From: a virus
Length of the DNA stretch: 41,604 nt
Reading direction: 5' to 3' (one strand)
IMG/VR virus record: IMGVR_UViG_3300048446_000527
Span: 1-41,604 of that record
The notes beneath the pieces are model-generated. The model worked only from the letters and a program-made list of their open reading frames with translations. It was not told where the DNA came from and searched no databases. Numbering within the stretch: the first letter of the stretch is position 1; each line of letters opens with the position of its first letter. The translations under genes were made by a program, and so were the position numbers. Of this stretch, positions 2 through 33,587 are shown one piece after another.

Positions 2-3000
2 ACGAGTCAAACCCTAGATGGTAAGCCTACCTTTATCAAAGGCATTCCATTAAAGTCGGGCAGATTTGACATAAGAGGCAATAGCGGAATATTTGCTCAA
101 CACTTTAATAATATCGTCTCAGAGATGGGCGGTAAGAAGTATGAAGTAACCCAAGAAACTAGACAAACTAGTGGTGGTCAAAAGAAGAAGAAAACACTAA
201 AGAAGAATGAGTTTATATCCTACAGCAACTCGGTAATCGAGGATAGCGTAGCAGGTGTTCAATTTAGCATAACAAGTTTCGGTGGCTCAAACATGTCGCC
301 GAAGGAGTACTTGGAGAGCGAACTTATACCACTTACAGATGATGACACACTAAAGCAGGTCAAAGAGCTTGGATTGCTTGGTGAGGGAAATGTTAGCGGG
401 TATTCAAAAAAAGCAATAGTTGTAGTGGATCATTATGGTCGTGTCGCAGTACGATCAATCTTCTATAAAAACAAGAGGAAGAAAGATGGTAAGTTACTAG
501 ATGAGATAAAGAAGCTGAAAGAAAAGAATCATTTCGGTTTCGGTAACTACAATCTCGTCATTCATAAATCCTCAGTAAGAAACAGTGGGGTATTTAATCC
601 ATTCTCAAAGCCCAACCCAAGTGATGTATCGAGTAGCTTTTCAACTGAAGGGCAAAACCAGGGTAGTCCTTTTGTAGATAATGGAGATGGTGTACAGGTT
701 AGAGGAGATTCAACCTTCAGGGTAGTTGGTCTTCTGGAGAGTGAAAACTTTTTTACTGCTAACTCAAACTTCGCAACCATGCAGAGCTTCATGGACGCAG
801 TTCGTGAGCAGAATGTAAAAGCTGTAGAGAATGGTCATCCTAAATATAGATTCGATAATGATCCTGAGAATGAGGAGCTTACAGATAGTGGAGGTTACAA
901 TCCATATGCTCACCTTTATTTTCCGCCTGACCAAAGAGAAGCAGCTAAAGCAGATATAGCAAAGTTTGCTGAGAGAAGAATATATGAGATTAAAAGTTTC
1001 ATACAACAAAAGCTGGCTGAGAATAAATATGCTGAATTTCCTGAGCTATCGGCATATCTTGATTACCTTACTCAAGGATTAGAGCAGGGCGGTCAGGTTC
1101 GCATAAGAGAGCTTTCCCAATTTGAACAACTTTGGGCTGCTCGCAAGCGTGCAAAGAATGGCGGTAAGCTCAACCTCGGTGCGGATTATGAGGAGCATAT
1201 GTATAATGGTAAGGAGGGTAATAATCCTTTCCTTAAGAAACTTTTTGGCGGAAAGAAAACAAGCCAGGGTATTGCAACCAAAGATAAGAATCCTAACTCT
1301 AACCTTCCGTATTGGTGGAGTGAGTTCAAGTCTTATGGATATAAGACGCTAAGGAATATACTTTTTGAAGATGGTAGTATACCTGACGAAATAAAAGACC
1401 GCCTGATCAAGCAGTATGGAAATAAGCTACCTGAGCTTTATAAGCTAGATATAACTGAAGAGGGTGCGATCTATAATTTCTTCATGGAGAATGGTGGAAT
1501 ACCTCCATTGCCCACCAAGGAAGAGATGTTGATTATGGCTGAGAAGGTCAGGCAGGCTGTCGAGTTAAGAAACCTACTTAATGTTTCTGAGCAAGAAGGT
1601 GCAGTGCATCAGGACATACTAGACATTCTTTACTGGTACTTTTTTGATTCTGATAACACAGAGCGTGTTAGTCCTGCTGATATTACTGAAGAACAAAAGG
1701 CTGAGATTCAGGAAGAGATAAATGAAACAGTCGACGGCACTGAGGATGAAAGCTTAGGCAAAAGCTATAGCGATGTTCTTGATAGTCTAAATGACCGAAT
1801 CGAGGGATTAAAGGAAGACAACAGAAAGATAATTCAGAATACTAAACAGGGTGATGTAATATCTCAGGATCAGATCAATATAGCTAAAGAGATACAGGAC
1901 TTAGAGGAAAGTAAGCGATTGGTTGAGGAGAAGATCCAAAAAACAAAAGAGTTTTCTGAGGGTATTCTTAATAGGCTAATTGATGATCCATCATTCAGGG
2001 AGAGCTTTGAGAAAAACTATGACCCCGATGAACCAGCTAAGGCTGTTGGTGGTGGAATCAATAAGGATGCTGTACGATCGGCTTCTGCTCAGTTAGGCTT
2101 GATAGATATAAGTCAGTCCACTGAGCTAGATATATCTAGAGTAAAGGCCGAGCTTAGTACTTGGGAGGACACATTTCACGCAGGGCATGGATATCAAATA
2201 TCGACATTAAGGTCGGAGGACATTCTTTCTGTTAGTAATGAAAGTCTAGCAAGTACTCTTCTGGATATGCAGGAGGAAGTAGGGCATGCTCCACTAGCGG
2301 TAGGCAAAATACTTTCTGAGGGTGATAGCCAGCCATCATTGTTCTTGGAGAAATGGAGGTCTGACCTAGAGGATGCTACTGGAAGAAATGTTTATGAGCA
2401 TGTTAGCAAGGCAGGGACAGACAAGAAGATTGTTGATGGAGAAGAGCAGCAGGATGGTGGCTTGCGTGCAGGAATCTACGATGGTGATACCACCCAACTC
2501 ACTACTAGGGTCACCGCTTCACAGAGGGTAGGTGCTGAACGTGAACCAAATCCTGAAGTCGCAGCACAGGAGAGTGACCGCATCCGCACACAATTCCTAC
2601 AGGGTGCAGAACCAGGAAAAGTAATCAAGGGATACGATGCATTAGTCCGTGCAATCAAACTGGTAGATGATGAGAGTACCGCAAGGGTACTGGAGATGCT
2701 ACAGCCACTCCGTAAGCAACTTAATGATGTTGATGTAGTATGGGCAACTGACGAGCAATGGGCGGCTGTTACTGAGCAACTCCGTATTGAGAAAGAGCGT
2801 GCGGGGCAACCTGTGCCTACAAGGTACGGGCAGTATAGTCCTTTATCTAGGGGCGGAGAAGAAGACCCACATATCATGATGGGTAACTATTACGGTTATG
2901 TTAAGTCTGACGGAACAGAGATGACAGAAGCCGAAAGACTCCAGCACATGATCAAGGTGCTAGCGGAAGAGCTTCAGCATGCCGTATTGTACACAACCAT

Positions 3001-6000
3001 AGATGCCTTACATAACTACAGAAGGAACGGATTCCTACCAAGCCACTACAAAGGTAAGTTAAGCATAAAAGACTTTGAGTACTTAAGTAAATCATCAGGA
3101 GCTATCTTTGACTTCCTTAGAGAGAAGTACGCCAAAGAAGGCAAGTACTCTGAGATATTAACTAGTGAGCAGGAGATGTGGGCAAGCTATGCAATAGACG
3201 CCAACTTCCGTGCAGAGATAGAAAACTTAAAGTTACCCAAAGAGTTTCGTGCTAGATACCGAACAACCCTCCAAAGGGTAGGTGACTTCTTCCGCAGAAT
3301 ACTTTCCCGTATATTTACAGGCATTCCAGAGGCATCAATCCTAGAGATGATGGATGACCACCTGAAGACATTCTTTAAGGACTCAAATAAGATCAGTGGT
3401 GAGAATCATATATTCCTTATGAGTTCACTGGAGAGCCAGCCAATACTGGCATCTCAGCAGTTCTTTGATTTTTGGGAAGGTAAGAGTGAGGGTAAAGACC
3501 CTGACCCTGTAGAAGACGATGATTGGAGAGCACCCACATATCAGGAATTTTACAGAATACCAAAAGAAGCAGTAGCGAATCGAGACTTCCAAACAATTGC
3601 CCGTAGTTATTTATCAAGAACAACAATTGATAATGATCAGTCTGATATGATTTCAGGCACAGCCCTGACCTTGGCAGGAGGATTAGGCTTAAATAAGGAA
3701 GGTGATGTTGATCGACTAGCTAATGCTATCCGAGCACAGCTTGGCATTTCTCGCCCAACGCTTGGGTCTGATATGTATGATCCTCCAAAGTATCGTGACT
3801 CAGCAAACGCAAGATCAATGATCGAAAGGGCGGGCACAGCTGAAGAAAAGGCAAGACTCGAAAGATTTGTAGATGACCAAACTAAGGTCATGGAAAAGAG
3901 GGTTTCCTCGAAGGTAAATATATATAACGAACACCTTAGGAAGGATGTCATCAGTGATATAAAAATGATTTTCGAATTTGGCGATCTGACTAGTGATACT
4001 GTTAAGAGGTTAATTCGTAGAACAAAAGATCGTATCGCAGATTCCTACAAAGATGCGTGGAGTGGTCGGGAGCCAATGTCAGATTTCGAAAGACAATTTC
4101 CTGATGGAGCTAAATATGTAGAAAACTATGCAAAAAAAACTTCTGCTTCCCTTCTGAATCTACTGGAAAGAGTAGAGAAAGGAGAAGCGACAGAGCAGGA
4201 TGTTGATAAATTTGCATTAGAGATGCGATCCAAGCCAACGCTTGGGTCTGATATTGGTTCGCGAGTAGATATTGAACTTACTGACTCGGATTTAGAGGAT
4301 GCAATGGATGGTAAATTTCAGGATTCATCCGCTGGGGGCATTAGTTGGTTTTCTCCAGCTTTTCGCAAAGCGAGAAGGGTAGCTGGTGAATTAGGTATTC
4401 AGTTAATTTCGGCCAAGGAAAAAAAGCGAACATCAGCGGGTCGTGAGTTATTTCAGGGTGGGGCAAGATTTGAGATAGTCGTTCCGATAGAGCCGAACGG
4501 GATGGTAAATAATAAGTACAGAAAGCTATTAATAGACGAACTTCGAGACATTACAAAATCCACAGAAACTAGAAATATTAAGGTCGATTCTGAAACCTCA
4601 GATAAAAAAGAGGACAGAGAAGTAGTAGTCTTGGGTGAGGCCCGTCAAGAGCAAGATGGCTCTATTAAAATTCAATCAGGTAGGGAGTATAGTCTTGTAA
4701 GGGATGTAATAATAAGTACCCAGTATAAAGCACAAGGCGGCGGTCGTTTTGTTGGCGGAAGTAACTTCCATCGCTTCGAGAAGGTATTAAAGGAAGCACT
4801 AAAAGTAGATAGAAATGTTAAGTTATCCGAAAACTCTTATGGTCGATACATATCTGACAATCTTATGGATAAGAGTAATCTTGAGGAAACCATTCCATCA
4901 AATGAAGCTATTGATGAATTAATAGAAGCTGGAATAGGCACCCTTGGGACACAGAAAAAATTTAGAGGAAAGGAATACATAGAATACCTCGAAACAATAA
5001 AAAGCATTACTGATAGTGTTGATGTTAAGTTCACAACAGATATGCGTAAGGGGAATGCAGGTTTTTGGCGAATAGGTGGTAAAACAGCCTATGTACACCC
5101 AGCATATAGAGCGACTTCCACAGGTATACATGAGATAGTTCATGCAACTATTGGAAATAAACTTGAAGAAGTTGGCTTATCCTCACGGTTAAAGGGAGAG
5201 GAATACTTGGAATTTATCTACGATCGCTCACAACAATTAGATGAAAATGATCCAATAAGGGCTTACCTTGAAGCGTACCTGCAAGCTGTTGATAATATAT
5301 CGAGTAAAGAAGATCGTGCTTTAATTAACGATTGGGCAAGAGATGAAAGTGATCAATTTATTTACACAAAGCGAGGCGGAACATACGGTGTATTTAATAT
5401 TCATGAGTTTGCTACTGAGATTTTCTCAGACAATGCTTTCCAGAAAGCACTCGCTGATATTAAAGTGCCTAAGCACAAGGAGTATAAGAACCTTTTTACA
5501 TTTGTAGTCGATGCTATAAGAAAGCTACTTAATTGGGATATATCACAGACTCTTCTTGAGAAAGGGATAATGGCTAGTGCTGAGATTATGGGTGAGGAGT
5601 ATACCGCATTAAGACCTGATGATCCTGAAGGTATATTTGGCGATCCAGGTACTGATATAGTCACTGACATGCGGGGAAATTTTAACAACTGGATGGACGG
5701 TGGGATGGAATTAGATCGTGATCCACAGTATATAGCCAAAGCATCCAGATCTATTATCAACAATAACGCACCTTACAAGGATGGTGGTGACCTGAAGGTA
5801 TACAAGGCTGACCGCGAGTTACTTAGACAATCCAAAGGTGTAATTAACCCTAATAGTCAATCTATCTTAGCAGGTCGCAGGGCAGCAAGAAGAGCGTATG
5901 TAGACGGAGTTGGTATGGTCAATTCACCAACATTAAACTCCGAGATGTACTCTCACACCCCAAGCAGGAGTGAGGTCGAGCAAAACTTGCAGAAGGAATA

Positions 6001-9000
6001 TGCAGCGTTGGCTGAGTTAATGAAGGTACTAACGGAGGCGACATCCACACTTCCTGAAGAGCTACAGAATGAAATTACCGAGAACCTTTTAAAGAACAGG
6101 CTGTCTGTTACGACTTCAGGTAAATTGAATCTCAATCTCGCCCTCAAAGCTGCCAAGCAAAAGCTCAAGAAGGGTCAAAACATTAAAAGGACTGCTGACA
6201 GAGAGCAGGCGTTATCCAAGATGCTTGAAAAAGAAGAGGCAGAACCGATTGATTCAATCGGAAAGTTTGCTACCACCGCAGAAAGGATGCGTGTCGCTAG
6301 AAGAACTCTGGAGCTAATTGAAGGCTCAAAGCGTGAGATTACTAAGCTGATGGAAAAGACCGACAAGATTGTGAAGAAGTCGGAGGAAGAATTAGCGAAG
6401 AACAAGAAGAGACTTGAAGACTTAGCATCAGGAAAGAGATATGATCCTGATAAGGTTAAGAAGCTTGTGGAAAAGAAGCTGAAGAGCTTAATCAATAACA
6501 CCCGATACAACAATCTTGCGGGTATGCCTGATTACAATAAGGGAGAGTTCATTGATAACCTCCGTGCTAATAAAGTGTACGAGGTACTTCAGGCAATAAT
6601 CGAAGGGGGTATGGCTCCAGAGCAGATGTCGAGACAGGAGATATATGATGCTCTTGAGGGACAGGTATCGTCGGCTGATATGTTTGAGGGGCTAACTGGC
6701 GAGAGACAGGATAATGTTGTTCGTGCCTTACTCGCTGAGATGCTACACAAGGACACCAAGAATAAAGCTAGGTCTGCATTTTCTATTGAGATGAGACTAT
6801 CCAAGAATGCACCAACCCGTGCATTGAAGCTGGAAGTAGAAGCTCTCAGACAGGCAGCAATATCAGATGATTGGAAGGATGTGTCCACCACAGGAATCCT
6901 TGGTAAACAGATAGATGAGGTTAAGCAGGTTCGTAAACAGATGACCGCTCTTAATCAGAAGATTGCCAAGCAGACACAATTGATGCCACTAGGCAAGCAT
7001 CTCATTGAGAAGTATAATGAGAGGTCTATGCAGATCGAAGACTACCTTGGTTCTGTGATTACTCCAGAGGTAGCCGTGGGTGATATGGTTGATATGCTCG
7101 ACCTGGATAAGGAAGGAAACATTGTACCAATAAAAGTTAAGTACATGGTTTCAGGGAAGGGCTACACTGAGTTTGTGCAGAAAGCAAACAGGATGAAGGC
7201 TATCCTTGAGAATCCCAAGCATAAGATATCGGATGCCCACAGGGATGCTTTTGCCAGAACCTATGCATTGATTGAACAAGGCTTGGCTAAATCCTATGAT
7301 GCCACATTTACAGGTACTATGTTCTCGTACCTTGAGTCATTCTCGCAGGTTGTTTCTCGTGCAGGTGATGAGGAAGCCTTGATGATTTCCACAATGATCA
7401 ACCGACTGAATACAGAGCTTAGACAGTATGGATCAAATGCAGTGAGGCAGGGACACTCAGTAAGTAGAGCATGGTACAACCTACAGGCTGAGTTACGGAA
7501 TGGTGCAGGTAAAAAACTTTCGCTCGAGCAAATCCAGCAGTATCTATTTGATCCATTCATGGCATATGTCGAGGGGCAACCCAAGATTGATGACCTTAAT
7601 TCGTTGGCTGAGGACTTTTGGTCTACTCTTAAAAGGCAAAGATTTAAGATTCATAACGATGATGCGAAGGCAAAGAAGAGATGGATGGAGCTTGTGCAGG
7701 AGATACAGGTAGCCAATAACCTAATTCAGAAGACAGCCAAAGAATTTAATATACCCATCGAGGATAGTATAAAGATCATGGATCCTCTGCTTCAGAAGAG
7801 AACACTTTATAGAGGCCAAATCCCAATAGGTGCATTGACTCTTCCTCGGATGCTGATGGTACAAAACCTCAGGGATGCTAGTCGTGCTTTAACGAAGAAT
7901 GATGAAAAGACTAATATCTTTAATCAGATAGTAAAAAGCATCAAAGAGAAGACAGATAAAAATGATCCTTTATTTGAGGAGGACTACGATAGAAACTCTT
8001 TTCAGGCAGAGTTATCAGGATGGAAATTATCAAGTGATGTAGAACTTTTCTTTCTTGAGCCTACCCTTAATGACTATAGCAACCCACGTAACCTTGGGTG
8101 GATGATGGGTGAGAGGCTTGTGTCTATGGATGAGGTTTCGGAAGCTTGGAATAATTCTGAGGGTGGAGATGTGGGTGCTAGAATTTATCAGACGATAGCC
8201 GAACTGATGCCCGATAATGTATCCAAGAAAGATTTCGTAAAGAACGGATTAGACTTTCTGACACAAATAAACAGTCGTGCGAATGCGATAGTCAAGAAGT
8301 ATGACGAGTACGAATCGAAAACAGCAGGGAGTAAGGAAAACCCAAATGCTATTATATACAAGGCAGAGGTCTGGAACTCTTTAAACTCACGGGACGAAAG
8401 TGTATCACTACCTAGTCATTTCTTCACATACAGCATGATGACAGAAATCGACATGAGGCAGATGGTAGCCAAGATGCTCATGGCTCATCACTTTGGCAGA
8501 AATCAGGAGAAGCTCGATGCTGCCTATAAAGAGTTGTTGAATAAGGAGAGAGAGCTAGAAGCTGAATGGGATGTAATCTATAGGAAGATAACAGATGAAC
8601 CATACCCATGGGCAGATCGTGATGACAATGAGCGCAACTTAGATAGCAGAAACTTCTTTAATATTCAGGCGACCAAGAAGTTTGGACTACCTCGTGCCTT
8701 ACGAAAGAAAATAACTTCTGATGAGTATGAAAAGCTCAAGAGCCTTTACACAAAAATCTATGCATTGAAAGAAGCACAGAAGATGAAGCCCGCCTTTGCT
8801 GCATATGCTAAGACTCAGGGTTCTGTTCTTTCTGATGAGAGGGCAGCAGTTGAAACACTACAGACTATTTCTAGCCTCTTGGTAGCGAATCCCAAGTCTG
8901 CTATAATGAACTTGGCTTCCCTGTATCAAATTTTTCAGCTATATGATTTACAGCCTGCTGGCTTCAAAGCTGCATTTAATGTTCTGAGAAGAATGCCAGT

Positions 9001-10870
9001 TGAAGCACTTGACACAATCATGCAGGGCTTTGGTAAGAATATGTTCTCCGCAGGTAAGAAGCAGTATGGAGAGGAAGCACTGGCTCCGCTATGGACATCA
9101 TTAGAGACAGCCACATCAGATAGATTTAGTGATGCTGGAGCTAAGGGTGTGCTAGGTGAAAATACCAAAACCTCCTCAATGCGTAAGTTCACAAGAATGC
9201 TACGCACGGCTCTACAGAGCGGTCTTAAAATCCCAGGCGTAAACAATCGGGTAATCAACATGATCTTAAATGGCGAGCCTGGGAGAGAGAAACTTGCGGA
9301 AGAAGGTACTTTGACGACTGCTCCTGGTTCAATGCTTACCTTCTCTTTAATCCCTGGATTCTCTAACCTTTTCTCATGGTTAAGTAATGCTACGCTTAAG
9401 CATACCACGCTTGAAGTATTGGCTGACCTGAAGAGAAGGGTTGAGGGGGCAGCGCATACCCTTGACCAACTGGGGATTGACCCAGAAGACAATGGCTATG
9501 AGTTGAGTTCTGAGAACATGGGGTACTCTAATAACTTCTTGGGCGTAAGTCTCAGAGATAGTAAAGAAGTAAATGATCGTATTGATCGTGAGCTTGCCAA
9601 CTTTGGTCTTTCGATCACTAAGCTTGCACAGGACTTCAGAAGGAGAAGAAAGGGTGACCTCAGTGCTGATCCTATTCTTGATAAGAACAAGTTAGTTGCT
9701 GCACATATAGCAAGTACCCAAATCACATTTGATGGCACGAGTGCCAAATCAAGGATTCTTGACACCAAGGGCGGTATCTACGCCAGCCCACTTCTTGGAT
9801 GGTCTACCAGTATGGCCGCTCATGCCAACCGAAAATTCCGTGGTGATAGCAGGGATGCAGTTGATCCTAGCAACATAGATACTTACCGAGCCTTTGGAGT
9901 CTTTGCACTATCTGCACTGGCAGTTGGTGTGCCTATCTCATTGTTTGTCATGCGTGGCAGTGAGTTGTATGATGAGGAGGTTCTTGGTAAAGACCCAGGT
10001 CTTGGCTATGTGCCACCTGAAGCATACTTACCATTTGGCTTATTGTTTGCAATAAACGACCCAGCCTTCAGGACACTCAGCTTGGTGGAGAGGCTTGGTA
10101 GGACATCATCGTTTGGTGGTATATATCAGGAAATGGCAACCAATGCATTGCTTGGTGCTACAGGTGAATCATTTCAACGGGACATTACTAATCGTATTAT
10201 GCTAATAAGTATGGCTAGTAACTTGAGTGATGTGTTCCTGAACTACCTGAGTGCAATCGACACTCGTTCGGCTGATACATTTGCACCTGAGTATTCCTCA
10301 GTCATCAGACCACTTATGAATATTGTGGGCATGAACAATGTCATACAATTCGCCCAGTACTCAAATAACTTACTAGGCACAGAAGACTTTCCATTATTCA
10401 GTTCAGAATACAAGGTTACCAATGTTCTGAATCAGCGTAACAAGTTGCGGGCAATCACCAAAGCTATTGGTATTGAGACGCAGAAGGTTGGGGGAGGACT
10501 ATCTTATCGACCCAACGCTATGTCCATAGCGATACGGGAAATGGAAAGGTCTGCATATGTGGGAGACAGGGACAGCTTCTTGGAAGCATATCGGTTAGCG
10601 TTGCAACTATCCGACGATGCCGATCCTAAGAAAGATGTCGCAGATAGATTTAAAAGAAGAAACTTAAGGAACGGAGTAAGTAAATACGCATTGGGTGATT
10701 CGGATTGGATTAAACTATTATCAGTTCTTGACCCCGAGGACAGAAATGACATCGAAGATGCGTTACTAAAGCATTCCTATTATCTACAACTCATAGGAGG
10801 AAAGCCAAAGGGAGAGAGCAGAACCAAGAGAGTCCAAATAGACGATCTGAGGAGACAAGCTTTATTATGA
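2..10870 (+). CDS. Giant multidomain (polyvalent-type) phage protein, 5' end cut by window edge
   Basis: The first in-frame ATG is at 125 (3,581 aa), but the frame stays open through every codon from base 2, so the true start lies left of the window and at least 3,622 residues are visible. Numbering from ATG 125: a zinc-peptidase-like HExxH is seen as H1669-E-I-V-H1673, followed by H1760-E-F-A-T-E. A similar but altered arrangement lies at E948-E-L-Q-H952 with Q1016-E-M-W. Residues about 1940-2130 are Lys/Glu-rich and probably coiled coil. A hydrophobic stretch at 3258-3276 could cross a membrane. The motif P-T-L-(G/N)-S-(D/E) recurs at 1211, 1371 and 1935. Size, mixed domains and phage setting fit the large polyvalent proteins that phages and conjugative elements are thought to send into the host with their DNA. 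Alternatives are an internal virion or tail-tube protein. It ends in an ATGA overlap with the next gene. Confidence 0.9.
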   Translation, partial: TSQTLDGKPTFIKGIPLKSGRFDIRGNSGIFAQHFNNIVSEMGGKKYEVTQETRQTSGGQKKKKTLKKNEFISYSNSVIEDSVAGVQFSITSFGGSNMSPKEYLESELIPLTDDDTLKQVKELGLLGEGNVSGYSKKAIVVVDHYGRVAVRSIFYKNKRKKDGKLLDEIKKLKEKNHFGFGNYNLVIHKSSVRNSGVFNPFSKPNPSDVSSSFSTEGQNQGSPFVDNGDGVQVRGDSTFRVVGLLESENFFTANSNFATMQSFMDAVREQNVKAVENGHPKYRFDNDPENEELTDSGGYNPYAHLYFPPDQREAAKADIAKFAERRIYEIKSFIQQKLAENKYAEFPELSAYLDYLTQGLEQGGQVRIRELSQFEQLWAARKRAKNGGKLNLGADYEEHMYNGKEGNNPFLKKLFGGKKTSQGIATKDKNPNSNLPYWWSEFKSYGYKTLRNILFEDGSIPDEIKDRLIKQYGNKLPELYKLDITEEGAIYNFFMENGGIPPLPTKEEMLIMAEKVRQAVELRNLLNVSEQEGAVHQDILDILYWYFFDSDNTERVSPADITEEQKAEIQEEINETVDGTEDESLGKSYSDVLDSLNDRIEGLKEDNRKIIQNTKQGDVISQDQINIAKEIQDLEESKRLVEEKIQKTKEFSEGILNRLIDDPSFRESFEKNYDPDEPAKAVGGGINKDAVRSASAQLGLIDISQSTELDISRVKAELSTWEDTFHAGHGYQISTLRSEDILSVSNESLASTLLDMQEEVGHAPLAVGKILSEGDSQPSLFLEKWRSDLEDATGRNVYEHVSKAGTDKKIVDGEEQQDGGLRAGIYDGDTTQLTTRVTASQRVGAEREPNPEVAAQESDRIRTQFLQGAEPGKVIKGYDALVRAIKLVDDESTARVLEMLQPLRKQLNDVDVVWATDEQWAAVTEQLRIEKERAGQPVPTRYGQYSPLSRGGEEDPHIMMGNYYGYVKSDGTEMTEAERLQHMIKVLAEELQHAVLYTTIDALHNYRRNGFLPSHYKGKLSIKDFEYLSKSSGAIFDFLREKYAKEGKYSEILTSEQEMWASYAIDANFRAEIENLKLPKEFRARYRTTLQRVGDFFRRILSRIFTGIPEASILEMMDDHLKTFFKDSNKISGENHIFLMSSLESQPILASQQFFDFWEGKSEGKDPDPVEDDDWRAPTYQEFYRIPKEAVANRDFQTIARSYLSRTTIDNDQSDMISGTALTLAGGLGLNKEGDVDRLANAIRAQLGISRPTLGSDMYDPPKYRDSANARSMIERAGTAEEKARLERFVDDQTKVMEKRVSSKVNIYNEHLRKDVISDIKMIFEFGDLTSDTVKRLIRRTKDRIADSYKDAWSGREPMSDFERQFPDGAKYVENYAKKTSASLLNLLERVEKGEATEQDVDKFALEMRSKPTLGSDIGSRVDIELTDSDLEDAMDGKFQDSSAGGISWFSPAFRKARRVAGELGIQLISAKEKKRTSAGRELFQGGARFEIVVPIEPNGMVNNKYRKLLIDELRDITKSTETRNIKVDSETSDKKEDREVVVLGEARQEQDGSIKIQSGREYSLVRDVIISTQYKAQGGGRFVGGSNFHRFEKVLKEALKVDRNVKLSENSYGRYISDNLMDKSNLEETIPSNEAIDELIEAGIGTLGTQKKFRGKEYIEYLETIKSITDSVDVKFTTDMRKGNAGFWRIGGKTAYVHPAYRATSTGIHEIVHATIGNKLEEVGLSSRLKGEEYLEFIYDRSQQLDENDPIRAYLEAYLQAVDNISSKEDRALINDWARDESDQFIYTKRGGTYGVFNIHEFATEIFSDNAFQKALADIKVPKHKEYKNLFTFVVDAIRKLLNWDISQTLLEKGIMASAEIMGEEYTALRPDDPEGIFGDPGTDIVTDMRGNFNNWMDGGMELDRDPQYIAKASRSIINNNAPYKDGGDLKVYKADRELLRQSKGVINPNSQSILAGRRAARRAYVDGVGMVNSPTLNSEMYSHTPSRSEVEQNLQKEYAALAELMKVLTEATSTLPEELQNEITENLLKNRLSVTTSGKLNLNLALKAAKQKLKKGQNIKRTADREQALSKMLEKEEAEPIDSIGKFATTAERMRVARRTLELIEGSKREITKLMEKTDKIVKKSEEELAKNKKRLEDLASGKRYDPDKVKKLVEKKLKSLINNTRYNNLAGMPDYNKGEFIDNLRANKVYEVLQAIIEGGMAPEQMSRQEIYDALEGQVSSADMFEGLTGERQDNVVRALLAEMLHKDTKNKARSAFSIEMRLSKNAPTRALKLEVEALRQAAISDDWKDVSTTGILGKQIDEVKQVRKQMTALNQKIAKQTQLMPLGKHLIEKYNERSMQIEDYLGSVITPEVAVGDMVDMLDLDKEGNIVPIKVKYMVSGKGYTEFVQKANRMKAILENPKHKISDAHRDAFARTYALIEQGLAKSYDATFTGTMFSYLESFSQVVSRAGDEEALMISTMINRLNTELRQYGSNAVRQGHSVSRAWYNLQAELRNGAGKKLSLEQIQQYLFDPFMAYVEGQPKIDDLNSLAEDFWSTLKRQRFKIHNDDAKAKKRWMELVQEIQVANNLIQKTAKEFNIPIEDSIKIMDPLLQKRTLYRGQIPIGALTLPRMLMVQNLRDASRALTKNDEKTNIFNQIVKSIKEKTDKNDPLFEEDYDRNSFQAELSGWKLSSDVELFFLEPTLNDYSNPRNLGWMMGERLVSMDEVSEAWNNSEGGDVGARIYQTIAELMPDNVSKKDFVKNGLDFLTQINSRANAIVKKYDEYESKTAGSKENPNAIIYKAEVWNSLNSRDESVSLPSHFFTYSMMTEIDMRQMVAKMLMAHHFGRNQEKLDAAYKELLNKERELEAEWDVIYRKITDEPYPWADRDDNERNLDSRNFFNIQATKKFGLPRALRKKITSDEYEKLKSLYTKIYALKEAQKMKPAFAAYAKTQGSVLSDERAAVETLQTISSLLVANPKSAIMNLASLYQIFQLYDLQPAGFKAAFNVLRRMPVEALDTIMQGFGKNMFSAGKKQYGEEALAPLWTSLETATSDRFSDAGAKGVLGENTKTSSMRKFTRMLRTALQSGLKIPGVNNRVINMILNGEPGREKLAEEGTLTTAPGSMLTFSLIPGFSNLFSWLSNATLKHTTLEVLADLKRRVEGAAHTLDQLGIDPEDNGYELSSENMGYSNNFLGVSLRDSKEVNDRIDRELANFGLSITKLAQDFRRRRKGDLSADPILDKNKLVAAHIASTQITFDGTSAKSRILDTKGGIYASPLLGWSTSMAAHANRKFRGDSRDAVDPSNIDTYRAFGVFALSALAVGVPISLFVMRGSELYDEEVLGKDPGLGYVPPEAYLPFGLLFAINDPAFRTLSLVERLGRTSSFGGIYQEMATNALLGATGESFQRDITNRIMLISMASNLSDVFLNYLSAIDTRSADTFAPEYSSVIRPLMNIVGMNNVIQFAQYSNNLLGTEDFPLFSSEYKVTNVLNQRNKLRAITKAIGIETQKVGGGLSYRPNAMSIAIREMERSAYVGDRDSFLEAYRLALQLSDDADPKKDVADRFKRRNLRNGVSKYALGDSDWIKLLSVLDPEDRNDIEDALLKHSYYLQLIGGKPKGESRTKRVQIDDLRRQALL

Positions 10871-24033: not shown

Positions 24034-24109
24034 AAAGTGATAGGAAGCCTCGCACCCGAGTGTCGGTGTTGTTTTAGAGTCATCCAAGGGCTAACCACCC
24101 GAGGCTTCC
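24034..24109 (-). other. Long hairpin H1 with 15-nt sequence shared with H2
   Basis: GGAAGCCTCG (24043-24052) pairs with CGAGGCTTCC (24100-24109). An inner stem lies in the loop. The hairpin begins 8 nt after the stop of the 24118 gene on the minus strand. The 15-mer AAAGTGATAGGAAGC at 24034-24048 recurs exactly at 27053-27067. It could be a terminator-like 3' end, but the tail TATCACTTTG is a weak T-tract. Confidence 0.65.
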
Positions 24110-24117
24110 TAAAATTG

Positions 24118-26785: not shown

Positions 26786-26826
26786 ATTTTCTAATGTATT
26801 ATATTATTTTCTAAATTGGTAAAGAA

Positions 26827-26876
26827 ATTACCATTCCTAGCCTAGCCTCACCTAGCAGGGACTTGCTTTGCTTTGC
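26827..26876 (-). repeat. Five-base periodic GG-rich tract (short)
   Basis: On the plus strand successive pentamers mostly end in CC, CA or CT (TTACC ATTCC TAGCC TAGCC), i.e. GGNNN units on the minus strand. It lies in the leader of the 26785 gene. Followed on the minus strand's upstream side by AAGTATTT, similar to the tail of the pseudoknot elements, but no pseudoknot is formed here. Confidence 0.6.
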
Positions 26877-27010
26877 CGAGGCAGTAAATACTTGTGAAGC
26901 CACCCTACACGCTCCACAACGTCGTGTCCCAACCCGTATAACCGTATGACACGCCCGTGTTTGTTTGTTTGTTTGTATTAATAACCCAACCTAACCCGCA
27001 AATTGAAGGA

Positions 27011-27036
27011 CGAGCAGGAAGACAAAAACCTGCTCG
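27011..27036 (-). other. Hairpin, 8-bp perfect stem
   Basis: CGAGCAGG pairs with CCTGCTCG across a 10-nt loop that is T-rich on the minus strand. No T-tract follows on either strand, so it is not a typical intrinsic terminator. Confidence 0.6.
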
Positions 27037-27061
27037 CCCCACTTAACTAAGGAAAGTGATA

Positions 27062-27096
27062 GGAAGCGAACAGCTGGGGGACAACTGCTCGCTTCC
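27062..27096 (-). other. Hairpin H2, 15-bp stem on the minus strand
   Basis: On the minus strand GGAAGCGAGCAGTTG pairs fully with CAGCTGTTCGCTTCC around a 5-nt loop, using two G-U pairs. On the plus strand the same positions are A-C mismatches. It is followed by TATCACTTTCC and shares an exact 15-mer with H1. Confidence 0.7.
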
Positions 27097-27110
27097 ATGG
27101 GGGATATGGG

Positions 27111-27910
27111 GAAATAAAATAGATACAGGAGTTACCAACAATACTGCCCGTGCAATCCCACGCTGGCATTCTGAAGCGTCGATCGCACTCATTGTTGCAC
27201 TTTTAGTCCATTGTCAATGGACATGGTCTGTGATTATACTGCAAACCATTGCAGTCTCCTGTATTATTTAATACTCTGATTGCACTATAGTAGGGATTGA
27301 CTTTTCCGTTTTAGTTAAGGTAGAGATTCCCAAGCACGCTAATGCTCCCGTCTCTTACACACTGCAGGAGTAATTAAAGGTATAGTCGGAGTCATGATCT
27401 TAGTTTACTAACAGCGAATCCTTTACCTGACTTTCAACAAGAGTTACCTTCACCCGAGATTCCTGACGCCGTTAAGCTTTTGCAGAATCTACACATTTAA
27501 GAGCTAAAGATCACAACTCCAACTAGAAATAAAATAGATACACGAGTACCGACTATGATTGACGCTTTGTGTCGCGGACATAGTCCCGAATAGTAGTGTT
27601 GTACGAATCACCTCGTGCCGCCGTCCGCATCCTTACATAGTCGTATAGCTCCACTGAGCAAGCTATGCCCCGCAGGAAAAGGATGAGGCTGGACATCTAG
27701 CTGGTATGATAAGCTCTAGTCGAGTCACGGCAGTCGACTGAAACCTGAGTTACATAGTCTTACAGCTCTATCCATCTTAGCAAGCTAATGCAGGATTCTA
27801 CCAATGACCCGACTAGAGCCTACCAATACCATTAGTAGCTAGTCGGCACTTGTGTACCTACCTTGTAAATGTACTGCGAAGTGTTCTGTCGTGACATTAC
27901 AGTGTCACGC
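27111..27910 (+). ncRNA. Candidate large structured RNA, region 1 (two modules)
   Basis: About 800 nt without a gene but packed with stems. The 17-mer GAAATAAAATAGATACA opens two modules (27111, 27526). Module A is closed by ATACAGGAG/CTCCTGTAT (27123-27131/27256-27264) and contains GTGCAA/TTGCAC, GTCCAT/ATGGAC and ACTGCAA/TTGCAGT hairpins. Between the modules, GGAGT-TGATCTTAG pairs with CTAAAGATCA-ACTCC (27388-27403/27504-27520). Module B is closed by CACGAG/CTCGTG (compensated relative to A), with GACTATG/CATAGTC inside. Further stems are GTATAGCT/AGCTATGC, CATCCTT/AAGGATG, GCTCTAGTCG/CGACTAGAGC (27713/27810) and CGTGACA/TGTCACG. G-U pairs in the GACGC/GTGTC and GTATAGCT stems form only on the plus strand. 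A replication origin is an alternative. Confidence 0.55.
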
Positions 27911-27956
27911 TGTGGCACACCTGATACACATTGGGTTCGTGTTGAAGGGTTAAGGG

Positions 27957-28568
27957 TTATTTCCACATACGCTTACGGCGAGCATTCTCATTACTAATGG
28001 CACGATTAGTGCGCCAATAGTCACGCTCATCCGTAGCTAACTCTGTAGCACCACCTGCCCGAGCCGCTACGATATTCTCGATACGACGCAAGCCAGTAGC
28101 ACTACCATACACAGGAGTATACTTACCATTGCTAAGCTTCCGTAGATGCTTAGGGTAGGCAATATCTCCAATAGCACGATACAACAATTTGTTGCGAGGT
28201 CGTGCTCGTTGTACAGCTACGCCATGCCACATAACGAGTGAGTGAGTAACTACCTTGCCGTTGATCATAAGATCCTTACGGCACTTGTGTGGTACTTGAG
28301 GTGACAGCTTAGGCTCACCATTCTCTACACGAAAGCGTGTAGTAGGCGAAGCAAACGCTACCTTCTCATTGATACGCTTGGCAGTCCTGCGGTCAGATGC
28401 CATGACACGATGAGCATCATTGCAATCGAACCAACGAGTAAACTTACTCGGACGCTTGGGCACAGCAACAGCCTTGGTTGGAGGACGATGCTTCTGAGGC
28501 TTAAACCTATTCTTACTCCGTTTAAGCCTACGACGAGCAATCGCCTCAGGTGATCTTCGTGTTGCCAT
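27957..28568 (-). CDS. Very basic hypothetical protein, 203 aa
   Basis: Arg/Lys-rich throughout, with an N-terminal basic arm (R-R-S-P-E-A-I-A-R-R-R-L-K-R-S-K-N-R) and a more ordered middle (L-M-I-N-G-K-V-V-T-H-S-L-V-M-W-H-G-V-A-V). Composition resembles nucleic-acid-binding or ribosomal-type proteins. It lies between two candidate structured RNAs, so an RNA-binding role is a reasonable but untested inference. A hairpin sits about 10 nt before its ATG; no Shine-Dalgarno is seen. Confidence 0.65.
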   Translation of the reverse strand: MATRRSPEAIARRRLKRSKNRFKPQKHRPPTKAVAVPKRPSKFTRWFDCNDAHRVMASDRRTAKRINEKVAFASPTTRFRVENGEPKLSPQVPHKCRKDLMINGKVVTHSLVMWHGVAVQRARPRNKLLYRAIGDIAYPKHLRKLSNGKYTPVYGSATGLRRIENIVAARAGGATELATDERDYWRTNRAISNENARRKRMWK

Positions 28569-28577
28569 AAAGGTGGA

Positions 28578-28608
28578 TGCGTAGCTTTGCTCGCAAGGAT
28601 GCTACGCA
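28578..28608 (-). promoter_or_regulatory. Intercistronic hairpin before the basic gene
   Basis: TGCGTAGC (28578-28585) pairs with GCTACGCA (28601-28608), filling the gap between the stop at 28615 and the ATG at 28568. Its position directly upstream of a start lacking a ribosome site suggests control of translation or mRNA processing. Confidence 0.5.
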
Positions 28609-28614
28609 GTGCCG

Positions 28615-29427
28615 TCAGGCAGAAGCTAACTCAGGCAGTGCAGAGATTGCTTTGCCGTCGTCAAGAATACCTGTGTTACCCAGATCAGTTAGGATGTTGT
28701 CCATAGCCTCAGTCTTTACGGGCAGAAGGTAGTTGGCATCTAAGCCATGCTCACCCTTAGTCCACTCGAAGTCACGAGGCACATCAGTAATTACTGAGTT
28801 CTCGTGCTCGACTACAGCCTTGAACATACGCTGGGTATGTGGGCAGTTTTGTATACGCTCCTGACGAGCGACTACAGCCTTCGTGACAGCCTCTTTGACT
28901 GAGTCACGATTGCGTACCCACTGAGGTACTTTGCCCAGGAAGGACACAGCAACTCGCTCCTTGTCATCCTTTTTGACAATCAAATCTACCGCACGAGCAA
29001 TAAGCCCGCCACGATCTACAAGCTTGCCTGTCTCACCATCGTACTGAGGTGGACGCACAAGATGATCAAGCACATCACTACGGATGTCCCAGCGTTCAGC
29101 TAACTTGACAGCTTCTTCAGCCGACTCGACTTCAGCAAATGTGCCGTTGCCACGAACTGCATTGAGTTTTTCCTTGGCAGTTTTAAGTGCCAGTTCTTCC
29201 TCAGCAGTATGAGGCACAACGATGGAATCGAAAGCATGAACGCTACGATTCATACCACCGCTGTAGTTAACGGCAGGTGATGACCACTGATCTACAGCAT
29301 CGTCATCTACTTCAGCCCGAAGGCTACCGATAGCTTGCAAGGTATGGTTAGTGTTGGCTAGGCTTGCACCTAGCGATAAGCTAGTACCTAATGATACTAG
29401 TCCGTCGATGTTATTATCTGTTGACAT
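28615..29427 (-). CDS. Hypothetical protein, 270 aa
   Basis: Not recognised. A Ser/Gly/Leu-rich N-terminus (L-G-T-S-L-S-L-G-A-S-L-A) is followed by a helical charged region (residues 75-110) and a central alpha/beta part (V-A-V-S-F-L-G-K-V-P-Q-W-V-R-N-R, then V-V-A-R-Q-E-R-I-Q-N-C-P-H). No signal peptide or membrane helix. It forms a two-gene minus-strand unit with the basic 203-aa gene, bracketed by the two structured non-coding regions. Confidence 0.65.
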   Translation of the reverse strand: MSTDNNIDGLVSLGTSLSLGASLANTNHTLQAIGSLRAEVDDDAVDQWSSPAVNYSGGMNRSVHAFDSIVVPHTAEEELALKTAKEKLNAVRGNGTFAEVESAEEAVKLAERWDIRSDVLDHLVRPPQYDGETGKLVDRGGLIARAVDLIVKKDDKERVAVSFLGKVPQWVRNRDSVKEAVTKAVVARQERIQNCPHTQRMFKAVVEHENSVITDVPRDFEWTKGEHGLDANYLLPVKTEAMDNILTDLGNTGILDDGKAISALPELASA

Positions 29428-29452
29428 AAGATCGACAACACGAAACCCAAGG

Positions 29453-30203
29453 CACGAGGTGGCTCACTAGAGTATTGCGTGGATGACATCGACAAGCCGT
29501 GCACGAAACATCTGAAGCATTCATAGTGGCGGGAACTACCCCATAAGACCCAATGTGCAGACAATTCGTTCGTGAATAGTTGGCAATTACAATATAGAGT
29601 TAGTCTGTTGCATCAGACACAATACTCTAGAGAACCACCTCGCAGTGCATTCTGTTAATTTATTATAGTGGTTTGACAGCCTTCCACTCTGTCCCACCCA
29701 TAGATATGGGAATCGGACGCACTTTCCACAAGATCAACAAGCTAATAGGAAACACACTTGGATTGGAATGGCACTCGGACATTACTCGTTTACGCACCAT
29801 GCTATAGTATCTCGTTCCCTGACATTACAAGGACTAGGGTTCTCGCTCCGATGTCTCGCTTACACCTCACCTCATATGGATTATAGCTTTATATCCTTCC
29901 ACTCAATCCGAGGGTAGTTACTCTTTAAAAGCTTACTACAATGAGAAACAACTCTCACCATCGTTTGGGCGTGGCATCGTACCTAGCGTACTAATTGACT
30001 ACTAGCAGGCAGACTGTTACATTTTTGATCGATCGCTCGACTCGCAGAGCAGTTTGAAACTACTTGACTAGGACTTGGTTTTTAGACTGCTAACATCTCG
30101 CAGTGAAAGTTATAGGTAATCGATAGGCGTTTGGGTTATGTCAGTGATTGACTAGGTGATTGTTGAATTGTTCATACCTTAGTGGGCACGCCAACCTATC
30201 GAT
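29453..30203 (+). ncRNA. Candidate large structured RNA, region 2
   Basis: No gene in about 750 nt. A long-range helix joins CGAGGTGG (29455-29462) and CTAGAGTATTG (29467-29477) to CAATACTCTAG (29620-29630) and CCACCTCG (29635-29642), 19 pairs in all. Further stems: GTCTG/CAGAC, GACAG/CTGTC, CCCAT/ATGGG, CTTGGATTG/CAATCCGAG (29757/29904, one U-G on the plus strand), TGAGA/TCTCA, GCAGTTT/AGACTGC (30049/30084, one U-G), and ATCGATAGG/CCTATCGAT (30119/30195). It shares CAAGCTAAT and TGACATTACA with region 1. It may be a separate RNA or the 5' leader of the plus-strand gene at 30393. Confidence 0.55.
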
Positions 30204-30235
30204 GGTGTTGTATATAAGGGATTTAGGAAAGCAGT

Positions 30236-30259
30236 GTTACCTAAAACATATTAGGTAAC
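30236..30259 (+). other. Perfect 9-bp hairpin followed by G-runs
   Basis: GTTACCTAA (30236-30244) pairs with TTAGGTAAC (30251-30259) over a 6-nt loop. Seven G and then five G follow at once, and AAGGGGG can pair with CCCCCTT about 40 nt on. With no T-tract it is not a normal terminator. It may insulate the 30393 gene from the structured region. Confidence 0.55.
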
Positions 30260-30392
30260 AGGGGGGGCAAAGGGGGAATCGCCTTCGTGCAAATCAACAT
30301 AATATACCCCCCTTCTCTACTTTCCAGCCCCCAGAAACATCACAGAATGCCCATATAAGCCCCGAGAACCGCCCTAAAAAGGCACAGAATAA

Positions 30393-33300
30393 TTGACGAA
30401 TGGTATAGTACCTAGTAAACTAGGTTACATGGCACCACCAGATACACGAAATGTCTTTCAAAGAACCATGGATACTGTTACGGATTTTGCGAGTAATCTC
30501 TATACAGGTGTAGATAGATTAGCAGGAGGCATATTACCAGGCGGTCAGGATTTTAACCAGGGCTACATTGCAAATATTGGTACAAACCTTGGGTTAATTG
30601 ATCGCAATCAAGGAGTCCCTGGAGGAGTCGCATCTACGATAGATACTCAGTCTATACAGCCGAACTTAGACTTAAATTATGAGCAACCTTCACAGGAAAG
30701 TGCATTACAAGACTTTTTCTCCCCAGTAGACCAAGGAACAATGGGGTTATCTGAGGCATTTGGTAGTGGAGGAGGATTTATACCGCCAGGATATGACTCT
30801 GAGGCGGAAATGGTCGCTGCGGGAATAGGAGACGGGTGGACACCAACAACATATTATGAGTTTACTACTCAAAATGGATCACCTATTGGGGTAACTGACT
30901 TAGAAAATGGCAGATTTAAGATTGATACAGTAGATGCCAATACAGGTTTGATGGAAACTTTTATTCAGACGGGATATGATGGTAAGGGTGGAATAACTGA
31001 TTATGAGAATAATGCCACAGCTGCTGGTGAAATGTCTGTGAATACTGGAGCTACTAGGATTAATGGTATTGATCTAAGCTCATTATTTGCTACAGCGGCA
31101 ATTGATCCTAATTCTAAATTGGAAATGGGAACAAAGATGGGGTCGAATGCAGTAGATATGCAAAGGATTGATAATTTGGATAGTGCTACTTTTATAAGTC
31201 TTACGCCAGCGAGTCCAATAGGAGGTGGAGGAGTTACAGCAGAGAGTGAAAAGTTTTCTAATGATGTGTTAAATTACATGAACCAGCTTGATCAGGCTGG
31301 ATTGGGTACAGTCATTGAATCAAATCCCCTCATTCAGGAAGTTAAGAACGGAAAATCAGTTGAGGAAGTCTTTGGTACTACATTTACGAATACTGACCCT
31401 ATAGTTAATGATATAGGTAGTGATTTGAATACAACACTACCAACCTCAGATAATAATTCTTCATTAGCTGATGCATTTTCTAGTGGTGGGTTAGCAGATG
31501 GTAATCAGACAGCTACAAATAATATTACTACACCCGATATGGATAAGATATCTGGTGTGGATAATACACAGGGTTCGTTAAATACAAACACCAACTCTGA
31601 TGGCAGTAGGGAGAACCCAATGAATACTCCTGGCAATCCTATTACACAGGAGAATAGTAATGAAGGTATTGCAGATGGATACAGCGTAAATGAAGCAACA
31701 GGTATTATCACGCAGACAAACCCAGATGGTAGTCAGACGGAAATTGTATCAAATGAGAATCAATTAAATCCTAGAAGCGATGAGATTGGGCCTTCTATTG
31801 AGGCTTTTCATGACTATATGGAAACTCAAGCATTTTACGAGGACTTGAAAAGAAGACCGAATGAAGGGGGCGACAGTTCTTCATTGGTGCTTTATGATAT
31901 TGTTTCTGAACCGATGCTAGATGATCTTAAGAATGATTATGCTAAAATTTTAAAAGAGGTTGGAGTAGGTCAGGATCAAATAAATAAGCTTAAGGGAGAA
32001 AATACATGGGATGGCGTAAAGGGTGCATTTAATAAAATGACTCAACCCTTTAATGCTACTGCCAGTTTAAAGGGTGTTGTTCAGCTCGCGAAAGGTATTA
32101 TTAAATTTCCTAAGAATTTAGGAAAAGTCGAGGACGCTACGAAGACTCATAATATCAATATGCAGAAGCAGAAAGCAATCAGACCTCAGCTTGAGGAAAA
32201 GATGGAAGAGCTAAAGGCTCTTGGTGTAGAGATAGACTCTCTCGAAAAGCTAAATATATCGGGGTACGGACTGCAAGTTGCTATACAGGATGCAATCAAT
32301 AGTACCGATGATTTTGACACGAAGCTAGAACTTACTGAAGCATTAACTGAATTAAAAGGAGCAGACATACTTGGTCTAGATGTTGAACTAACAGATGAAG
32401 ATTTTTCACTTACACTGACTAGAGAGGAAGACGAGAGATACAATAACACTTATGAAAGTGATGGTCTGGGTGACACATCTTCACCAGCTAGTTATTATAG
32501 TGGTAAGCTTGCAGATTACGAAAATCCATTTAATCCTAGTGACGATCCATTTAAGCAGCCTACGCTTGCTGAGGGTGGGAATCAAGAAGGGTGGGACATT
32601 TCAAAAGATACCACTCGTGAACCTGAATCATGGGGAGTAATGAATGAGGATGGTAGGGCTGTAGCAAAATGGAATCCATTTGCTAAGGAGAGTGCACAGG
32701 AAGAAGTTGCTAAGGATATAGTTAATCCTAATCGTTCAGTATCAGACGGCTATTCCTCCCCAACTATGGCTACTATTGATCGTAATATTCGACCAACACT
32801 TGATCGGGTAGGGGATTTTATTGAATATCCGTTTGAAGTAGCAGGTATGGGTATGTATAACACGATTGGTCGATTACCACTTGTTGGTGGTGCTGGTAAA
32901 TCAATAGGTAATGCATTAGCAAGGACTGGACAGGGGATTGACCGAGCAATTGATACCAAGCTACCTGATAGTTTATTTGGACTAAAGACTGGTGACGATG
33001 GAACAGGTGGAGATGGTGAGGGAAATGAAATTCCACCTGAAATGTTTGAGGTAATGAAATCTGGTATTTATGGACCAGGAAATTCTCCACTTGTCGAATT
33101 ACTTAGAGATAAACACTACGGCACGGGTTACTATGCAAATAATGGCAATGGAGGGCAGGGAACTCCAGGGTACATGAACTCCGTTAGTGACCCAAGCATG
33201 ACAATATATGGTGGTTCAGGAGGGGTCGCATCATCAGGTGGTGTTCCTGGCGGTGTCGGAGGTATGGACGGAGGCTCAGGTAGTGCTCGTTCAGGAATGA

Positions 33301-33587
33301 GCAGTATGGCTGATGGATTTGATTTATCCACTTCTGATGGTCAGGCAAAGTATGCGGATCTATACGGAGAGGATAGACTTGCCGATGAGCTATCCAGGCG
33401 AGGGTTATTTGATCGAAGAGCAGCCGAAGTAGAGCAAGGGAATCCTGAGCAGGGAGACACATATGCTGGTATCGCAAACGAGAACTATCGTCTGAAAGAA
33501 CACTTTGAACAGCCTCAGCAAAATCTTGGCGAAGAAATAGCTAAAGGCATAAATAAGGTGCAAGGCAAAGAGGGCGTATTTGCGTGA
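30393..33587 (+). CDS. Large low-complexity phage protein, 1,064 aa
   Basis: Start uncertain: TTG 30393, or the in-frame ATG 30429 (M-A-P-P-D-T-R-N). Rich in Gly, Ser, Asn and Asp, with no membrane helix. A short motif recurs: G-I-A-D-G-Y-S, S-V-S-D-G-Y-S, S-M-A-D-G-F-D and G-L-A-D-G-N. A helical region spans about 500-700. The far C-terminus is Gly-rich, then acidic. Composition suits an internal virion or scaffold-type protein, but no family is recognised. The downstream gene starts in a GTGA overlap with its stop. Confidence 0.75.
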   Translation: MTNGIVPSKLGYMAPPDTRNVFQRTMDTVTDFASNLYTGVDRLAGGILPGGQDFNQGYIANIGTNLGLIDRNQGVPGGVASTIDTQSIQPNLDLNYEQPSQESALQDFFSPVDQGTMGLSEAFGSGGGFIPPGYDSEAEMVAAGIGDGWTPTTYYEFTTQNGSPIGVTDLENGRFKIDTVDANTGLMETFIQTGYDGKGGITDYENNATAAGEMSVNTGATRINGIDLSSLFATAAIDPNSKLEMGTKMGSNAVDMQRIDNLDSATFISLTPASPIGGGGVTAESEKFSNDVLNYMNQLDQAGLGTVIESNPLIQEVKNGKSVEEVFGTTFTNTDPIVNDIGSDLNTTLPTSDNNSSLADAFSSGGLADGNQTATNNITTPDMDKISGVDNTQGSLNTNTNSDGSRENPMNTPGNPITQENSNEGIADGYSVNEATGIITQTNPDGSQTEIVSNENQLNPRSDEIGPSIEAFHDYMETQAFYEDLKRRPNEGGDSSSLVLYDIVSEPMLDDLKNDYAKILKEVGVGQDQINKLKGENTWDGVKGAFNKMTQPFNATASLKGVVQLAKGIIKFPKNLGKVEDATKTHNINMQKQKAIRPQLEEKMEELKALGVEIDSLEKLNISGYGLQVAIQDAINSTDDFDTKLELTEALTELKGADILGLDVELTDEDFSLTLTREEDERYNNTYESDGLGDTSSPASYYSGKLADYENPFNPSDDPFKQPTLAEGGNQEGWDISKDTTREPESWGVMNEDGRAVAKWNPFAKESAQEEVAKDIVNPNRSVSDGYSSPTMATIDRNIRPTLDRVGDFIEYPFEVAGMGMYNTIGRLPLVGGAGKSIGNALARTGQGIDRAIDTKLPDSLFGLKTGDDGTGGDGEGNEIPPEMFEVMKSGIYGPGNSPLVELLRDKHYGTGYYANNGNGGQGTPGYMNSVSDPSMTIYGGSGGVASSGGVPGGVGGMDGGSGSARSGMSSMADGFDLSTSDGQAKYADLYGEDRLADELSRRGLFDRRAAEVEQGNPEQGDTYAGIANENYRLKEHFEQPQQNLGEEIAKGINKVQGKEGVFA

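Follow-up and report, generated by a model that had tools for sequence, protein, structure and literature searches.

Organization of the locus

The window, i.e., the whole stretch of DNA analysed here (an IMG/VR virus record of 41,604 bases), encodes DnaB, a DNA helicase, an integrase and a ligase-like gene. In G001, a 62-kb relative of the window, there is a terminase as well as a match, though a weak one, to a portal. On the gene content of the two, the window is therefore taken to be a tailed-phage genome fragment. The G001 counterpart of its 3,581-aa open reading frame (125–10870) is a 2,323-aa frame, preceded by a stretch without long frames.

The element under study, region 2 (29453–30203), lies in a 965-nt spacer between two divergently oriented genes. 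Region 1 lies further along the minus strand, beyond a second gene.

26786–27956: region 1, spacer downstream of the 203-aa gene
27957–28568, minus strand: basic orphan gene of 203 aa, following the 270-aa gene in the minus operon
28615–29427, minus strand: 270-aa orphan gene; the hairpin lies upstream of it on this strand
30429–33587, plus strand: the "1,064-aa" gene, a 1,052-aa reading from ATG 30429

The 270-aa, 203-aa and 1,064-aa proteins had no family in Pfam, PHROGs or NCBIfam, and PADLOC returned nothing above its cut-offs for the two minus-strand proteins. Among the cassette proteins, the only above-cut-off match in these four resources was a SAP domain at the end of the 271-aa protein of L025. 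Predicted structures of the 203-aa and 270-aa proteins were unusable, with mean pLDDT values of 41.5 and 40.9, respectively. A Shine–Dalgarno-like motif is absent before the 270-aa gene, as it is before 17 of the 29 genes examined.

Viral contigs searched with the 270-aa, 203-aa and 1,064-aa proteins returned only a handful of contigs. A DnaB search of viral contigs gave 80 loci, of which the eight closest new ones (L018–L025) were compared with the window and the more distant were left out. Pattern scans recovered the same relatives only, plus 11 unrelated-looking matches in one scan. No relatives of the 1,064-aa protein or of DnaB were found in prokaryote genome contigs. Among named phages and plasmids, a search for similar DNA gave no match for region 2 and, for region 1, one 31-nt match (E 0.3) that was judged to be due to chance. 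The phage lineage is without close named relatives in the collections searched.

A long helix upstream of the 270-aa gene

The dominant feature of region 2 is an inverted repeat in which 29455–29480 faces 29617–29642.

29455–29480, minus strand: long helix, one arm (3' arm on the minus strand)
29617–29642, minus strand: long helix, other arm (5' arm on the minus strand)
29440–29660, minus strand: hairpin domain; the long helix closes a loop of 136 nt (window) or 82 nt (L005 and L003)

Twenty-three of the 26 positions are Watson–Crick pairs; on the plus strand the others are two C·A and one A·A. Read on the minus strand, both C·A become G·U, so that 25 of the 26 positions are paired counting the two G·U. 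The two perfectly paired segments that were first noticed, CGAGGTGG (29455–29462) with CCACCTCG (29635–29642) and CTAGAGTATTG (29467–29477) with CAATACTCTAG (29620–29630), were confirmed and are parts of this one stem. It lies 28 nt upstream of ATG 29427, the start of the 270-aa gene on the minus strand.

Stems were scored by adding 1 for each pair and subtracting 2 otherwise. When the 965-nt spacer was shuffled 300 times with its dinucleotides preserved, the best stems averaged 9.07 (SD 1.0) and peaked at 14; the long helix scored 17, the highest of any stem in the window. When the window and the 62-kb relative were divided into 107 fixed blocks of 965 nt, a partition that can split a stem, only one block, in the relative's region 1, scored higher (19). 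The ortholog of the long helix in this set scored an equal 17, and all other blocks scored 12 or less. The long helix is real and unusual for this genome.

Folding energies agreed with the stem scores over the hairpin domain. With 60 shuffles, 29440–29660 gave z = −4.2 on the minus strand and −3.4 on the plus strand, and the ortholog in L005 gave −5.3 and −5.0. The stem is unchanged in L005, where alignment shows a loop about 54 nt shorter. Since the arms are invariant between the haplotypes, the long stem itself offers no covariation.

The remainder of region 2

Region 2 had been proposed in the earlier note to be a single structured RNA of about 750 nt with many smaller helices. A structured non-coding element is indeed present, but neither energy nor stem counts support one RNA of that size. 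Folding z-scores were +1.0 (plus) and +1.25 (minus) for 29660–29930 and −0.03 (plus) and −1.75 (minus) for 29930–30235; the entire 811-nt stretch gave −0.06 (plus) and −0.96 (minus) over 20 shuffles. Outside the hairpin domain the energy is not below that of shuffles, and chance gives as many small helices: region 2 has three stems scoring at least 9, compared with a mean of 2.2 per block in 31 control blocks and 2.4 per shuffle in 60 shuffles. The stem thought to close the RNA, ATCGATAGG/CCTATCGAT at 30119–30127/30195–30203, exists as a perfect 9-bp stem, but one of ordinary strength.

29691–29718, no strand assigned: short hairpin, in minus reading GTCC/GGAC in the window and GTCT/AGAC in L005; 29694/29715 changed on both sides
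29914–29939, no strand assigned: short hairpin, GTAGT/ACTAC in the window and GCGAT/ATCGC in L005; three adjacent pairs changed on both sides
29944–29955, no strand assigned: short stem; pair 29944/29955 changed on both sides
30119–30203, no strand assigned: ATCGATAGG/CCTATCGAT stem; chance-level strength; only the right arm is kept in L004

Three short hairpins retain pairing through double compensatory changes between the window and the only other haplotype found. In the second, the changes affect 29915–29917 with 29936–29938. Three adjacent double changes that convert GTAGT/ACTAC to GCGAT/ATCGC would be hard to explain unless the pairing were under selection. Region 2 is unlikely to be a conserved reading frame because the haplotypes differ by indels of 54, 36, 14, 4 and 1 nt. 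Purine content is neutral in regions 1 and 2 (0.49), compared with 0.54–0.69 in plus genes and 0.39–0.48 in minus genes.

Conservation in relatives and cargo types

L003 is identical to L005 over the 800 nt of region 2 compared, hence only two haplotypes are available, and covariation across region 2 is weakly testable with two. Between the window and L005, 774 of 822 aligned positions of region 2 are identical, with 110 gap columns. Other spacers of the same genome gave 1511/1606 with 143 gap columns, and coding sequence 19,214/19,738. Because its divergence resembles that of other spacers, region 2 is not regarded as hypervariable. The neighbouring genes are unusually conserved between the haplotypes, at 806/813 positions for the 270-aa gene and 607/612 for the 203-aa gene.

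More distant loci carry other cargo. L004 aligns only from about window position 30157 rightward and is without the stem and without the left arm of ATCGATAGG/CCTATCGAT. L023 and L025, whose DnaB is 46% identical, share the control block, while their genes and leader differ. According to the earlier note, the proposal would fail if homologs lacked the helix; it is missing from these three loci with other cargo but kept in the close relatives L005 and L003. When a covariance model of the hairpin, built from two sequences, was run against 15 sources (249,296 bases of the phage and its relatives), nothing beyond the locus and its orthologs matched. The leader of L023 folds with z = −3.6 on the minus strand vs −1.2 on the plus strand, and that of L025 with −2.5 vs −1.0. 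The L004 leader showed no comparable fold (z = +0.5 to +1.4). The cargo slot as a whole (26786–30430 in the window) holds different orphan gene sets behind one divergent control block when compared with L023, L025 and L004.

Control block and candidate promoters

The right end of the slot contains promoter-like and operator-like sequences.

30239–30256, no strand assigned: palindrome ACCTAAAACATATTAGGT, operator-like; counterpart in L023
30299–30326, minus strand: candidate promoter TGGAAA-16-TATTAT, a putative site that aligns with CAGAAA-16-TATAAT in L023
30393–30421, plus strand: candidate promoter TTGACG-17-TAAACT, 7 nt before ATG 30429; kept in L004, L005, L023 and L025
30410–30425, no strand assigned: palindrome ACCTAGTAAACTAGGT, overlapping the plus promoter; counterpart in L023

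The mRNA of the 1,064-aa gene is probably leaderless, judging from the position of its candidate promoter. The same promoter type (TTGACG-17-TAAAYT) abuts the ATG of a 1,376-aa gene in G001. With the candidate minus promoter, read from 30326 to 30299, the leader of the 270-aa gene would be about 865 nt long. Promoter-like sites are not commoner than chance (10 observed, shuffle mean 13.3), and the promoter assignments are inferred. No separate promoter or terminator was found at the borders of region 2. Both palindromes contain ACCTA/TAGGT half-sites. Together with promoters that abut the ATG, also in G001, they may point to a phage regulon with leaderless mRNAs.

Which strand may be transcribed

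U–G pairs in two helices had been taken as support for plus-strand transcription toward the 1,064-aa gene. A 12-position stem at 30048–30091 does have two G·U on the plus strand; the main helix, however, contributes two to the minus strand, which makes the window tally 2 to 2. In L005 the strong stems of region 2 have six G·U on the plus strand and three on the minus, and a helix in the L005 loop, assigned by eye from the predicted fold, has two on the minus strand. Going from the window to L005, 9 of 11 variable pairs are kept on the plus strand and 8 of 11 on the minus; going from L005 back to the window, the counts are 3/11 and 9/15.

Region 1 has long stems with 14 G·U on the minus strand vs four on the plus strand, and its segment 27701–27900 folds with z = −5.7 on the minus strand and −0.7 on the plus. 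The pairing evidence in region 2 is mixed, and we lean to the minus strand on four grounds: the main stem, where that stem lies relative to the 270-aa gene, the candidate plus promoter, and the 14-to-4 count in region 1. Region 2 is unlikely to serve the 1,064-aa gene as a plus-strand leader: that gene's own candidate promoter, conserved in relatives, abuts its ATG. As the candidate promoter at 30393–30421 predicts a leaderless plus mRNA, region 2 is no longer needed as a plus leader.

Comparison with known RNAs

Leader or intergenic hairpins processed by RNase III are known in phages, as in the T7 early mRNA and the lambda N leader, and stems of such length are typical substrates of double-strand RNases in phage mRNAs. 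The element resembles the T7 and lambda stems in being a long imperfect stem with internal irregularity in what is predicted to be untranslated RNA near a start codon. Processing stems of the RNase III type span at least some 20 bp of untranslated sequence; here there are 26 positions, 25 of them paired on the minus strand. The element differs from the T7 and lambda stems in its loop of 82–136 nt, its putative leader of about 0.8 kb and the orphan genes behind it.

Rfam gave no gathering-level match in the window or in five relatives; relaxed E-values added only sub-threshold matches, judged to be chance. A literature search of partial coverage found no description of the element. OLE RNA, an Rfam family, is a large structured bacterial ncRNA; region 2 has no covariance-model match and a phage context. 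GOLLD and ROOL are described (Nature 2025, PMC12286853) as large ncRNAs of phages and prophages that have no known function, often lie near tRNA islands and adopt compact covarying folds. As a proposed large phage non-coding RNA, region 2 is like them. It is unlike them in having no Rfam match and no tRNA gene in the window scanned, and also in that one large compact fold was not found with the two haplotypes available: only 29440–29660 beats shuffles.

Interpretation

The best explanation, which we put forward tentatively and at somewhat less than even confidence, is that the element is a cassette-specific 5' leader hairpin of the variable minus operon. Transcription would start at the divergent control block (30206–30430) and run through region 2, so that the leftward operon in the variable cargo slot, the 270-aa gene and then the 203-aa gene, would carry an untranslated 5' leader of about 0.8 kb. 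The near-perfect 26-bp stem would fold about 28 nt before the first start codon and could act as an RNase III-type processing or stability site or as a structural insulator shielding the start site. We infer the minus transcription, the single leader RNA, the processing by a double-strand-specific RNase and any regulatory effect.

The significance of the stem, the stability of its domain, the conversion of both C·A to G·U on the minus strand and the 28-nt distance to ATG 29427 argue for a minus-strand leader. It is also consistent with the plus gene having its own conserved promoter, with the alignment of the minus promoter candidate in L023, with the L023 and L025 cargo-type leaders that also fold better on the minus strand, with the G·U excess in region 1, downstream on the same strand, and with the frame-breaking indels. 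Less favourable are the G·U tallies (even in the window, toward plus in L005), covariation without a clear minus preference, promoter-like sites that do not exceed shuffles, a stem without covariation, and the L004 leader without a comparable fold. As a processed or regulatory leader, the element would be a further example of long phage stems controlling an accessory operon; the present work chiefly revises the first account of its strand, extent and promoter context.

The significant hairpin domain and the compensatory hairpins would also suit an independent, stable minus-strand ncRNA of a new phage class that is either cut free from the 270-aa gene or stops short of it, region 1 then being another RNA of this kind in the same operon. 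The neutral purine content of both regions and the strong minus-strand structure of region 1 agree with this. Such an RNA is nevertheless unlikely, as most of region 2 is no stabler than shuffles, the borders yielded no promoter or terminator and no relative was found beyond the two haplotypes. Rather less probable is an RNA of the plus strand, independent or directed toward the 1,064-aa gene as first proposed. It would draw on the two G·U of the 30048–30091 stem, the 6-to-3 tally in L005 and the 9 of 11 variable pairs kept, but it has to contend with the two C·A that the main helix has on the plus strand and with the conserved promoter abutting the ATG of the 1,064-aa gene. Moreover, the left end of region 2 is without a plus promoter-like site, the one found lying mid-region at 29995–30023. 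We consider it just as improbable that region 2 is no more than a variable spacer of the usual kind, whose one long inverted repeat does nothing important. The haplotype divergence is like that of other spacers and the rest of region 2 folds like shuffles, but the strength of the stem and three neighbouring double changes that keep one hairpin speak against this.

A broader possibility, a shade more doubtful again, is that regions 1 and 2 both belong to a new class of structured RNA from the phage minus strand, co-transcribed with exchangeable orphan proteins in the cargo slot, in which stem bases are kept and tips or whole modules swapped, as in an RNA or RNA–protein system that diversifies against host defence. 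If this were true, it would represent a new phage RNA type, with a testable link between the exchange of modules and host defence. Least probable, in our estimate, is an element acting at the level of DNA, either an inverted repeat with a role in replication, recombination or the exchange of cassettes, or what is left of an inserted element. Its place within a slot of genes exchanged between relatives would fit, as would 26-nt terminal inverted repeats around a loop of changing length. However, the hairpin is single copy in the 15 sources, where the covariance model matches the locus and its orthologs only, rather than the several copies of a MITE-like element. No obvious target duplication was seen by eye at 29455 and 29642, and no empty-site sequence aligns. 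As DNA the arms do not match perfectly, and their mismatches pair in minus-strand RNA; no DnaA-box cluster was found.

Region 1 and its relation to region 2

Similarity between the two regions, raised as a possibility in the earlier note, was not detected by blastn (E up to 1) or by covariance search. Within 29436–29461 of region 2, two short stretches could pair with stretches of region 1b on the same strand, 27609–27619 (11 nt) and 27931–27944 (14/15, with a bulge). These matches may be due to chance: short motifs of this kind between region 2 and region 1b are each estimated to occur about once by chance, and blastn (E up to 1) did not pick them up.

Direct repeats of GAAATAAAATAGATACA (27111 and 27526) flank a module of about 414 nt (27112–27526) that L003 and L005 lack. 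The region 1b stem (27707–27825 in the window, 2170–2274 in L005) has in the inner part of the L005 copy one extra base pair, added on both sides, and an entirely different tip. A GGAAG/CTTCC-like hairpin followed by TATCAC on the minus strand, terminator- or processing-like in appearance, occurs in the window at 24036–24111 and 27055–27096 and once each in L023 and L025. Finally, a hairpin sequence is partly duplicated (27633–27665 and 27750–27787), the copy lying in the variable tip of the same RNA region, with 76% identity over 38 nt.
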